A DNA stretch of 64,000 bases from Cliona cf. orientalis (Eukaryota; Porifera; Demospongiae; Clionaida; Clionaidae): the NCBI GenBank assembly GCA_963930775.1, contig OZ005697.1, positions 7,152,292 to 7,216,291 of the forward strand, read 5' to 3'. Position numbers and translations under genes: made by a program. This document shows positions 2,056-47,636 of this stretch, piece by piece (the first letter of the stretch is position 1; every line of letters begins with the position of its first letter). The notes beneath the pieces were generated by a model. That model did no database searches and had not been told where the DNA came from. It worked only from the letters and a program-made list of their open reading frames with translations.

Positions 2056-3452
2056 TACCATTAAATTGCGTGGGCGTGAGGTGGGGATATGACACCTAAA
2101 CCACATCAAAGTCATTAGTGAGATGCATGTTGTGTAACCACGCCCTTTTAATTGCACAGGTCTCAGGGGTGTGGCTGCTAGAGCCGGAAGTGTTCATTTA
2201 ATATCCTCCATGGACCGGAAGCCGAACCGGAAGGGAGGGGCCAGGCCACGCCCAAAACAGCCCCACCCTGTTCCCCAAGGACCACCATTCTCAATCAAGT
2301 GCCTACTAACCACCGGATGTCCACCGGAAGCCCACAATCAATCCCAATTAAAACACACAGCTTCCTCAAGGCCAAAACACACACAAACACTTGGAGGCCG
2401 TTCTGCCACACCGCCCACACAAGAGCTCACCTCATTTCCTGTGTGGGCGGAGTAACAACACGTCATCGCAACCACATCCGCTTCAAACCATCGTCAGCTT
2501 CCGTCCAGCCGTACGGGCCCCTCGATCGCACCGCCGTACAGTGCCTCATTAACAGACATGGCCTCACCTTTGACCTCCTGCCACGCCCCCAAAGCCTCCT
2601 GGACGGGTTCAAAGGTCACCACCGCATCCGGGACACGCCCACCTATCGCCGCAGCCACGTCCCCGGCCCCGATGTCCAAGCACTGGCCTGTGAAGCCACG
2701 CCCAATCGGAAGCAATAAAACCTGCATTAACGCACACGCACACACTCCACACAGTGCCAGGAACACGCCCACATGCTTAATTAGGCCTAATTAGCTTTTT
2801 TTTTTTTTTTTTTTTTTTTCAAGGAGACCACACACACTAAGCAGGAAAAAAAATGGTCCGAAAACCACCATATAGTCGAGCTGGATGCATAGTAGAGCCA
2901 AATAATGCAAGCAGGCATCCAAATAGCCATACATGCAATGTTTGGTAAAGGGTCGTCAACTTACCCCGCGCGCCCGTAATTTTTTTTATGGGCAAACATT
3001 GCAACTGCATGGCTTCCTATGCCAATATAAAGGGTGCTGTATCTCAACACCGAAAGTGAAAATCAAAATTCCGGCTTTAACATCTTTCTAGTTTTGACTC
3101 ATTCTGCGTGCTCATATAAAAATTATGGCCTGAAGTGGTCCCAGAAGTCTCAAACATTAGATTAATTATTTAAATTCTTTTTTTTTTTCTACTTAGTGTG
3201 TAATTTTTGTCGTTGCGGTTAATAGTTAAGCAAGAATGCTTTGATCTTGCTTTGATGTGGGCAATTACCGGCCTTTTCTTCAGGGGCCACTTCCGGTCGC
3301 TAATTACACGCGCATAATCATCCCTGGCCGATTCTGGACACGCCCACCTTCGACCAAAAGCACTCGTATGGCCTCTTCGGCCACGCCCCTTCACGATTCG
3401 CTAATTGAATTAGCCAATCCTGACGCTCACGCCCACGCAATTAAATGGTACC

Positions 3453-3574
3453 TTAAATAATTTTCGAACAGACTCTACTGTATTCTCGTTAATATTGCCA
3501 GGTGTATTTTTGTGCATTCAATTTTCGCACAAGCCAGGCTGTCTTTAACAAAGAAATATTTGCAATTTACGGTA
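3453..3574. repeat. Truncated MITE, right half
   Basis: It matches the right half of the complete MITE at 44587-44777 (shared TAATTTTCG, TTAATATTG and the terminal TTTACGGTA). The left half is missing and the copy abuts the internal foldback terminus ending at 3452. Confidence 0.55.
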
Positions 3575-3859
3575 CACCTCAGTATTATTTCACTCCTTAG
3601 TATTACAGTTTTATATTGACTCGAATTCTAATTTTTCACTAAGCACTTCATCATTATGCTTGTATCATGTCAACACTTGGAAATGTGAATGGTAAAGGGT
3701 CACTACCTACTGTAGCATTAAGACTGGGGATGTATACTGTAGCATGTGAACGTTACCTAATACATGCACATTCTATACATGCTGCTCGCACACTAAGTTT
3801 ACTCACCTACCTGCAGATGAGGAAATGCCGCTTTTACAGTGTTACAATTATTATATAGT

Positions 3860-43406: not shown

Positions 43407-46400
43407 ATGATGGCTTCACTGCATTCTGGCTACCACCACGAGCTACTGAGACGATGGCAGTCATCCTCTAGTGCTGCTCTGTCTACTGACTGCTTCATGT
43501 ACCCAATCTTTGTCAGGTACGTTCCACCCGCCAAAGTCAGTAGGTTGGAGTCCAGTTTGTTAGCCTAGCACGTGTCTACTGTATAATATTATACGATTCT
43601 GTAGGATTTCTGCCCCTTGCATATTAATTTTACAATAATTATGCCTGCTATTTCATACACATGTTCAAGCTGGCAGCCCCCCTACAAAAGAAGGAGGGGC
43701 TGGCTTGTGATATCCCCCTCCCCACGCCCACATTAATGACTCATCATCCCTATCTAAGGTGTTTGGGTTAGGGGGCAGCATATTATAGGTTCCAGCTGGA
43801 GGACAGCAGACAGATTACATACCCAAACCTTCCTTTTCCTTTAACTCCGTATACACAAGGCTTGTACACCAGTCCCTCTTACCAAAAACGGAAGGGCTTG
43901 CTTATAATACATACACAATAATATTATTATGCATGATATTATTATGTACACACACACATATACATTGTACATGCATACACTCATGCTCATTCAGTGATAA
44001 TCCTGATGCTGAGGAGGATATTGGTAGCCTACCAGAGCAGAAAAGGTAACTCAATGGCTCACTAAAAGTATTCTCTATGATTATTGAACGACATGTACAG
44101 GTATGGAGTGAATAAGCTTGAATCTGCTCTATCTCCTCTCGTGAAGATAGGGTTAAAATCAGTCCTCATATTCGGAGTACCAACCAAAGCTAACAAGGTC
44201 AGCAAGCATGACGAAAACTGGCTCTATTTTGTGGGGTATAAACCTGACGTGCACATGCACACTCACACAAGTGCAATTGAGCACTATGTGACACTTTACC
44301 ATGTAAATTTTATGCTTACTATTCATCCAATCATTGTTTAGGATGACAGGGGCATTCCCGCTGATGCCGCAGACAACCCAGCCATTCTTGCCGTGAAGAA
44401 GATTAGGGAGCTATTTCCAGATCTCCTTGTAGCGTGTGACGTGTGTCTCTGTCCCTATACCGACCATGGTCACTGTGGAATCCTCAATCCTGATGGAACT
44501 ATCAACAACCCTCCCAGCATTGAGAGGCTAGCAGACGTGGCACTGGCCTACGCCCAAGCAGGTACATGTGTAATACACTGTGCACGTACCATAAATCGCA
44601 AATATTTCGTGTCTAAAATTTTTTATGCGATAAATTTTCACGTTAAATAATTTTCGGACAAAACGACCCTGCACTACACTGTCATTAATATTGCGCATGT
44701 ATCTCGTACGTTTAATTTTCACACAAGCCATGCTGTCTGAAAATATTTTAACATCAAAATATTCACGATTTACGGTATGTGTGCTTAAATCAATGTAATT
44801 GGGCAATGTAAGTATATGCAACGTAGACTGTGAATATTGAATTTTTAATAATAATTTTTGCCTGCCATCTTTATAACTTTCACAATGGCATGGTCTATCC
44901 TGTAGGCTGTCATGTTGTGGCTCCTTCAGACATGATGGACAACAGAGTGGCTGCCATTAAACGACGATTAGCTGACGCTGATCTCGCTGGTAAGGTGAGT
45001 AGACCACATCAAATTGATATTAAACCTTCGGGAAAATCACAGTCTAGGAGTGATGCAGTGGTTTAACATCATTATGATTCATAAAACACATAGGGCTTTT
45101 TCAGGAGTGGTGCTGCACCATGCCATTGCTCTTTAGTGACTTCCCTGAAATAGTTATAGTAACAATATTATTATGATTGTTAGACAGCAAACTCACTTCC
45201 CCGACGCTCCAATTATATCACATCAATATCCATACTATACTAGAGCATCAAGTCAGCTGAATACTCTCATGATACCAAGAGCAAACACAGCATCATATCA
45301 GGCTTCATTATTTTCCAAGAACACTAGCACAATGGAATAAACAAAAAGTCAATACAATATCACAAGCTGCACCAAACTATTAGTAACAGTTACACTAGTA
45401 ATTATTAATATTAGTGATATAGCTATATAATTGTTTAGGCATACACTTTGAATTAGCATCTTTGCTATTTTGTATGTCTGCTGTATGCATTGTAGCTACA
45501 GAAATAAGTATAAATTATATGCTTTCTTTGGGCTGTCTATGTCACTCATTGTTCAATGCCTACATGTAGGTTGCTGTGTTGAGCTACAGTGCAAAATTCG
45601 CCTCCAGCTTCTATGGACCGTTTAGGTTAGTACTAAAAATCCTAACACATGTCATTGAGACACTAGTGTATGCATGCCTACTATGCTGATCATTAATTTT
45701 AGATTGCCAATTCCACCAAAATTAATGTTCCGAGAGCCTTTTCACTTAACTACTTGCAATACAGATTGAGCTGCAACAGTCAGTAGCTAAGTTTGCTAGC
45801 ATGGTTACCGTAGTGTTCATTACTACAGCTATAACCTACACTTTACTTTGTATGGGTCTGTACCCTATGCTGCGATTGGGATAAGAGTGAAAAACTTAGA
45901 GACTACATCCAGAGTCCCTCATGAATACACCGCCATAAATTTGAACTAGGACACATTGACAAACCGCGCATGCTCCGTATACGCGTACAATATTGGGGCG
46001 CGCGGCTTGAGCCGGTTGACCTTCACCTGCCATGTGCTCGATTGAATAGGGAAATCCCCCTGCCCTGAAAGCGAGCTCGCTAGAGAAAGCGAACTGAGAG
46101 AAACGCCATAATAGTATCATTGGATAGTCCACGATCTCTTCTACGCTAGGTTCGAATTCTGGGTCCCAACAACCTTTCATGCGCGCTAAACATTTTGAAG
46201 CAGTCTTCACCCCAATTTCATCATCATTTCATCACAATTACCTCATCGGTCGGCCAAAGCGATTTGTTGATTGGGACTCTGGACGTAATTACACAATGCC
46301 ATGAATATTAATAGTATTTTTATGTACTAAATTCTCAGGGATGCTGCTCAGTCTGCCCCAGCATTTGGTGATCGGCGATGCTACCAGCTTCCACCTGGGT

Positions 46401-47636
46401 CCAGGGGTCTGGCTATGAGGGCTGTGGTAAGTACACACACAGTGTACATAGATCTAACTGCTACCCAGCCGTGGGTGGTAAGGGGTCGTCATTGCTACAA
46501 TTACGTGTATATGTTATGTTGCATCAATAATTCATGAACTGGAAGGCTGTGTGTGGGAGAATGAAGTTTTCAGATTCTCCATGAAGTGTATCGTGAAATA
46601 CTGTAGCTTGCAGTTATGATAAATCTTGTCGATATCCTTCATTAAATTTCTGATTTATCTCACCACAATAGTCATACCTCTCTCATATTACCCTCAGTTT
46701 GCTTTTATAAAATATAATAATTATTATATTTACAATTAGGATCGTGATGTCCAAGAAGGTGCTGATATGTTGATGGTAAAACCTGGAATGGCTTATCTGG
46801 ACATTGTCAGGGATGTAAAGAATAAGGTACACAGTAGGCATGAATGCATGCAGGTGTGTACAATCAGTTGGCTAAATCCTTACTAGTAGTGAACTATAGT
46901 GTTCATTATAGTATTCATTGTGTATTTCTGCAGCATCCTTATCATCCGTTGGCAATTTACCAGGTAAGTGCTTTGACTGACAACCATTGAATATAGTCCA
47001 CATCACTTATAATAATACAGTCACAGTGATGTATGTCCTTAGGAGATATATAGACATATGTAATGAAGTTCCATATCATACAGTGCTAGGTCTCCTATTG
47101 TGCTTCACTGCTGCGTTACTGTGTAGTCCCCCCAATCCCTTTCCTAGGATACAGCTATTACCAATTGATACATATACATGTACCTCACGTATACGTGTGT
47201 GTACACATACCTGTATAAGCAAATGCACAATCATAATATACGCATACTCATTGACAACATAAAGTGTCTCCTGATGTATAATTATTATTATTATTATGCT
47301 GCGTTTCAACCAACATACAGTGTATGCTCACATACATGGATACATTCACACATCTTTTAATAGTGTACACAAAAATTCATGTCACTCACGTACGCATACG
47401 TGCGCAGGTGTCTGGTGAGTATGCTATGCTGTGGCATGGCAGTGTGGCTGGTGCTTTCGATATGAAGGCCATAGTCATGGAGAGTGTGACATCAATGAGA
47501 AGAGCTGGTTAGTAGCTATACCCCCTAATATTATTGAAACCATAGCTGCATAAATCATGGATTTGTAATAACAGGGGCAGATATCATTATTTCATACTAC
47601 ACCCCACGTCTTCTCCGCTGGTTCCAAGAGACCTAA
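43407..47636 (+). CDS. ALAD: Delta-aminolevulinic acid dehydratase (porphobilinogen synthase)
   Basis: Exons: 43407-43516, 43995-44045, 44101-44197, 44342-44561, 44906-44994, 45570-45625, 46339-46426, 46740-46826, 46934-46963, 47408-47507, 47575-47636. All junctions are GT-AG and in phase, giving 329 residues (human: 330). The enzyme condenses two 5-aminolevulinates to porphobilinogen, the second step of heme synthesis, in the cytosol. Schiff-base lysines are K198 (SYSAKFASS) and K251 (MLMVKPG). The zinc cysteines C121, C123 and C131 are in [16 protein letters not shown], so it is the animal zinc-dependent type. The adjacent ATG at 43410 is an alternative start. Intron 4 contains a MITE. The gene appears fully intact. 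Confidence 0.96.
44587..44777. mobile_element. 191-base MITE in ALAD intron 4
   Basis: TIRs TACCATAAATCGCAAATATT and AATATTCACGATTTACGGTA are present, with TTTTCGGAC and TTAATATTGCGC inside. It is the complete relative of the fragment at 3453-3574. Confidence 0.75.

Follow-up and report, generated by a model that had tools for sequence, protein, structure and literature searches.

A 14-bp word shared by unrelated transposon families and gene-side DNA in the sponge Cliona cf. orientalis, a candidate site for a sequence-specific DNA-binding protein

A stretch of 64,000 nucleotides from the demosponge Cliona cf. orientalis (contig OZ005697.1; hereafter the window) contained repeated exact and variant copies of a 14-bp word, GGTAAAGGTCGTCA, which lay in several transposon-like elements as well as upstream of and within the ALAD gene (Table 1). 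The assembly searched comprised 216,785,154 bases in 149 contigs, in which the window is C9:7152292-7216291; the published assembly odCliOrie1.1 is described as slightly larger, with 217.17 Mb in 307 scaffolds (PMC12639293). The five exact copies reported in a first-pass annotation of the window were all recovered at the positions and on the strands it gave. Its near copies were likewise all real, those at 16159, 22657, 22826, 23713, 38089, and 38109 differing by substitution and those at 2944 and 46477 being insertion variants, which escape a substitution-only search. With no more than two substitutions, 11 matches were found in the window, whereas 100 shuffles of the window averaged 0.25 and never exceeded 2. 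An inverted pair of the core was also present at L040:8577-8609; this pair and that of the window at 38089-38122 represent one case of each relative orientation.

Table 1. Word copies and the elements that contain them, in positions of the window (TIR, terminal inverted repeat; MITE, miniature inverted-repeat transposable element)
Feature	Position	Strand	Remarks
Long-TIR (foldback-like) element	2110..5473		Three family B copies; inverted arms I3 314 nt 98%, I16 102 nt 95%, I20 91 nt 100%
Insertion form GGTAAAGGGTCGTCA	2944..2958	+	In module of long-TIR element, family B
Exact word	4082..4095	-	Family B module
Exact word	4443..4456	-	Family B module
Family C element	9314..9885		TIR TACAGTGGAACCCCTCT
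Exact word	9540..9553	+	In family C
Exact word	9581..9594	+	Second copy, 41-bp tandem unit of family C
Family A MITE	9993..10173		About 181 bp, ends TACCATACTTAATC and GATTAACTACGGTA
Exact word	10066..10079	+	Within family A MITE
One-mismatch word	16159..16172	-	Within family A2 MITE copy
Element J	22575..23814		TIR TACCGTATTTCTTCTAAAAA; contains near copies 22657 (+), 22826 (+), 23713 (-)
Inverted pair of near copies	38089..38122		Spacing six bases; no relative within 354 kb compared
Variant GGTAACGGTCGTTT upstream of ALAD	43301..43314	-	92 bp before ATG 43407; ALAD named by exon match
Insertion form GGTAAGGGGTCGTCA	46477..46491	+	In ALAD intron

In the whole genome (216.8 Mb) the word occurred in 5,112 exact copies, in both orientations, whereas the reversed word, which served as the control, occurred in 6. 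The genome-wide count was thus above the control, and chance was excluded, in agreement with the first-pass annotation. When up to two mismatches were allowed, there were 22,795 matches to the word and 3,447 to the control. A further 2,932 copies had a base other than A at base 6, against 14 for the control; a hand count of these variants among the matches listed gave 15 with G, none with C, and T in the remainder. An earlier suggestion was that the word contains a nuclear-receptor half-site, and AAAGGTCR does resemble a response element of the AAAGGTCA type. However, AGGTCR may begin here with A, T, or G, T being the commonest alternative among the matches listed, contrary to the purine-first RGGTCA, and the conserved word passes beyond the half-site through GGTAA and GTYA on either side. 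Because of this variation and this length the half-site was not supported, and a nuclear-receptor response element is a most improbable explanation.

The abundance of the word was also apparent in DNA selected without regard to it. In 20 stretches of 10 kb each (200 kb), the word had 5 exact matches, 8 with one mismatch, and 12 with two; the control had 0, 0, and 3, respectively. The difference disappeared in the same 200 kb when three mismatches were considered (14 for the word and 16 for the control). When 11-mers in these stretches plus the window (264 kb) were ranked by the number of unrelated contexts relative to expectation, excluding low-complexity words and words with fewer than seven copies, AAAGGTCGTCA ranked first, with 13 copies in 7 contexts where 0.07 was expected. 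Palindromic words of the ATACATGTA type occurred in up to 11 contexts in the 264 kb, which is more than AAAGGTCGTCA, but with a higher expectation; these words and GCTATACGGTA were over-represented across multiple unrelated contexts and are possible additional motifs. In a full-text literature search for forms of the word, no sponge paper was found by title (logos in figures are not searchable), and no title on sponge or Cliona genomes, transposons, MITEs, or motifs announced it in a title-level search.

To describe the contexts of the word, we read the surroundings of 30 exact loci, 19 places with a base-6 variant, the 20 unchosen stretches, one paralogue region, and the window, and defined families by clustering and alignments. 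The 49 word-chosen places (30 exact and 19 variant) were the first listed on contig C1 (below 1.5 Mb) and are not a random genome sample; they include non-independent cases, L010 and L011 being in one gene and L023 and L024 being two copies in one element. By hand count, 35 of the 49 lay in repeats: 10 in A/A2, 7 in B, 3 in D, 6 in E, 3 in I, and 2 each in F, G, and H. Family A/A2 is a MITE of approximately 180-200 bp with terminal inverted repeats and ends TACCGT, for which one case (L016 filled and L015 empty) showed a TA target duplication with an empty site. The word preceded by TCT, usual in family A, accounted for 1,405 of the 5,112 exact copies. Family B is a long-TIR element with modules of approximately 390 bp, and the ends of families C and E are TACAGTGGAACCCC and TACYGTAGAATCCCGCGATTACG, respectively. 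In the remaining families the two ends were not both defined: D starts with TTACCCCGCGCGCATGCGC, F starts with AACCCTCGCCG, I has two words in tandem, and G is a further word-bearing repeat. Case H is a near-identical stretch duplicated at L021 and L022, and case J of the window has ends TACCGTATTTCTTCT and three near words.

The sampled copies therefore belonged to no fewer than eight repeat families, whose flanks were dissimilar, rather than to one, and the word held a conserved position inside families while copies of different families shared little beyond the core, as the first-pass annotation had proposed. Neither outcome that this annotation had named as refuting it, a single family for every copy or a count at control level, was obtained. 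Its idea of a very short mobile unit was not supported, since the word of families A, B, C, and E lies within larger elements that have terminal repeats of their own. All copies could alternatively descend from a single ancient mobile element whose flanks have diverged past recognition, the word being its best-kept part. A and A2 are visibly related, with the same core and diverged flanks, and at L041 (6354, 6754, and 7128) long-TIR modules have GGTAAAGGGTCGTCA where sister modules have GGTAAAGGTCGTCA, amid changed surroundings. The ends of A, B, C, and E differ, however, as do the distances from the word to the ends, and a reason for keeping this core alone would still be needed, so that we regard a single ancient element as improbable.

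The other 14 of the 49 places (L006, L010, L011, L012, L017, L019, L020, L027, L056, L059, L060, L063, L064, and L065) belonged to no family, although L012 showed weak likeness to A2 and L027 to D. The reading frames and splice sites around gene-side copies were judged by eye. In PFDN2, whose N-terminus matched prefoldin 2 chains (E value, 5.7e-5), the word was located 38 bp before the ATG, and in a proteasome-alpha-like gene, which we take to be PSMA6, GGTAAAGGTCGTTA was located 39 bp before the ATG. DPAGT1 had two copies, 86 and 169 bp before the ATG; its identity was weak by score (E value, 0.85 and up), though five of five matches were to that enzyme. The word lay 115 bp before the start of the kinase gene at L017 (Pkinase; E value, 6e-8) and 161 bp before that of its tandem paralogue at L051, and at L065 three exact or near copies lay within 76 bp, ahead of a short open reading frame (ORF). 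Clusters were also formed by the pair before DPAGT1 and by three copies in one stretch of ARCN1 (coatomer delta; E values, 9e-8 and 0.15). ARCN1 had four copies including variants, taken as intronic, and its stretch was matched elsewhere in the genome only over its simple repeat. Intronic copies were found in a gene with an SRP54 domain (E value, 1e-6), presumably SRPRA, and in a kinase gene (Pkinase; E value, 1.5e-17) that we assume to be of the AKT/SGK subfamily, and ALAD (exon identity; E value, 8e-6) had both its upstream variant and its intron copy.

The copies at L006 and L010, one copy at L011, and the ALAD intron copy closely followed a 5' splice site, as judged by eye, which is what a signal acting in RNA, for example a splicing element, might show. 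The word occurred in both orientations relative to genes and also upstream of start codons, and such a signal is very improbable.

Genome searches were made with the upstream stretches of DPAGT1, the PSMA6-like gene, and kinase L017. The stretches of DPAGT1 and the PSMA6-like gene matched only themselves, and a 241-bp query around the word of kinase L017 had a sole other match, 39 bp at 95% with the word included, upstream of the paralogue L051. In these three stretches, therefore, the site is present in non-repeat DNA beside genes. This result bears on the suggestion that the word is a mobility signal, bound by a transposase or a cofactor in several non-autonomous DNA transposon families, with the gene-side copies as worn remnants. 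The location of 35 of the 49 places inside repeats agrees with it, and the TIRs of A, C, E, and J all begin with TAC.GT, which is compatible with related transposases. A transposase-binding motif may apply to some families, but it fits poorly with gene-upstream copies that match nothing else in the genome, with the block kept between the kinase paralogues, and with a word that is internal and not terminal; as a general explanation, a mobility signal is unlikely.

The constancy of the word was compared with that of its surroundings at base 4, which is not part of a CpG. Copies with a base other than A at this position numbered 115 in the genome against 17 in the control, corresponding to 1.9% of 5,112. 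The ratio expected under free drift, calculated as the mean d/(1-d) of exact copies from non-CpG flanks, was 0.29 for A (7 copies), 0.18 for A2 (3), 0.17 for B (5), and 0.10 for D (3), with a mean of 0.21 (n = 18), and 0.07 for six family E copies in the T form. The sample thus consisted of 24 copies and one genome-wide position, with C, G, and H left out, and L002 and L009, which are composite or truncated, inflated the value of A; without them the listed A values averaged 0.19. This indicated that the word was more constant than its surroundings at the single position tested. The word was likely retained in active lineages as the DNA flanking it changed, and the individual copies are likely young. 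Variants at bases 10 and 11 were more numerous (401 and 656 genome copies; controls, 14 and 78) and, among the matches listed, were mostly TG and CA changes. As this is the CpG decay to be expected, in a genome with a CpG observed/expected ratio of 0.59, these variants have no bearing on selection.

From these results we propose that GGTAAWGGTCGTYA is probably the recognition site of a sequence-specific sponge DNA-binding protein; the site would be used in the vicinity of genes and retained by transposon lineages. Of the meanings that the first-pass annotation offered for the shared core, a putative protein-binding site is the best reading. A host protein would bind GGTAAWGGTCGTYA near gene starts and in introns and would aid the transcription of genes, perhaps of those that are widely expressed. 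Elements of several unrelated DNA-transposon lineages would contain the site, probably because they gain expression or open chromatin from it, and most of the thousands of copies would have arisen as these transposons spread.

Enrichment at gene starts is suggested rather than shown. The gene-start zone, defined as the 200 bp before each of the 25,502 annotated genes (PMC12639293), makes up 2.35% of the genome. Of the 14 non-family places, two lay in this zone (P = 0.042), or three when the short ORF of L065 is included (P = 0.0039). Several results weigh against the proposal. Among all 49 word-chosen places, 2 lay in the zone where 1.15 was expected (P = 0.32), or 3 with L065 (P = 0.11). Of ten matches to proteasome alpha N-termini, the five starting at profile positions 1-3 were fetched with the word disregarded, and only one of these five upstream stretches, that of the PSMA6-like gene, had the site (the start codon of L073 was not located), which at the genome-wide density gives P = 0.15-0.23. 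A repeat fragment (L064:5-65) was located approximately 85 bp ahead of the word at PFDN2. In a word-masked profile search of the unchosen 264 kb, the word was not better kept than its near flanks (33 alignments, P = 0.28), partly because family B modules come in two kinds, the second of which was misaligned; and several family A copies selected independently of the word had words that were decayed at the CpG. Finally, neither NRF1 nor G-box motifs were clearly enriched near the word in 28 hand-picked contexts (2 of 28 each; backgrounds, 2.7% and 4.6%). After this test, in which the cAMP response element (CRE), ETS, and CCACGCCC occurred in 0, 0, and 1 of the 28 contexts, respectively, we abandoned an apparent pairing with NRF1 that had been noticed for family D and the PSMA6-like promoter.

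CTCF sites have been spread by mammalian short interspersed nuclear elements, and E2F sites have been amplified by Brassica MITEs. In those cases, as in our proposal, transposons amplified the site of a host factor; they centre on one or a few repeat families, whereas the sponge word is found in at least eight. According to PMC12221973, non-bilaterian animals lack CTCF, and the ctenophore CTEP1/CTEP2 system uses a GC-rich loop-anchor motif that, like the word described here, is lineage-specific, has many sites in a genome of approximately 200 Mb, and is associated with promoters and DNA-transposon insertions. The CTEP1/CTEP2 motif differs from GGTAAWGGTCGTYA in sequence and in having a known protein and methylation sensitivity. 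The sponge site could belong to an architectural or insulator protein (CTCF- or CTEP1-like), spread by transposons and acting mainly in chromatin contacts rather than in transcription. The very many long, specific, transposon-spread sites, some of them in promoters and introns, are consistent with this, as are the zinc-finger looping motif and the frequent DNA-transposon insertions at looped promoters in the ctenophore (PMC12221973). The consulted part of that paper names no sponge loop-anchor motif, however, and the pairs and triplets of the word suit an activator equally well; a mainly architectural role is unlikely. Sponge promoter elements have been described in Amphimedon, four of them with no factor assigned (PMC4773876); their logos are given in figures. 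Returning to the proposed recognition site, we advance only tentatively the broader possibility that the putative demosponge protein is a pan-genomic promoter or architectural factor, a counterpart of CTCF or CTEP1, whose thousands of sites arose mostly as unrelated transposon families converged on one 14-bp site.

Other features were observed in the window. Positions 25156-28034 and 60969-63726 form a near-identical inverted duplication, with arms of 966, 359, and 254 nt at 95-98%, approximately 33-38 kb apart. Its long ORFs presumably resemble ROCO-type GTPases, and the ORF at 27063-29489 had no Pfam match. Retroelement-like ORFs at 10645-16030, with RVT_1 at 12457-14286, are flanked by split near-identical repeats of 226 and 189 nt, an arrangement that recalls DIRS-type elements. 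Diverged copies of an apparent POT-family transporter gene lie in both orientations at 19687-22243, 35449-37071, and 53397-57102, and the ORF at 53397-54692, the sole transporter-like ORF tested, matched PTR2. An uninterrupted (CT)64 repeat is located at 60575-60702.

For the question of how sponge regulatory DNA is organised, a long, specific, and abundant site that lies near genes as well as in numerous transposon families offers a practical means of isolating the protein that would bind it. The word would also provide a clean case for studying how separate transposon lineages acquire one host site.

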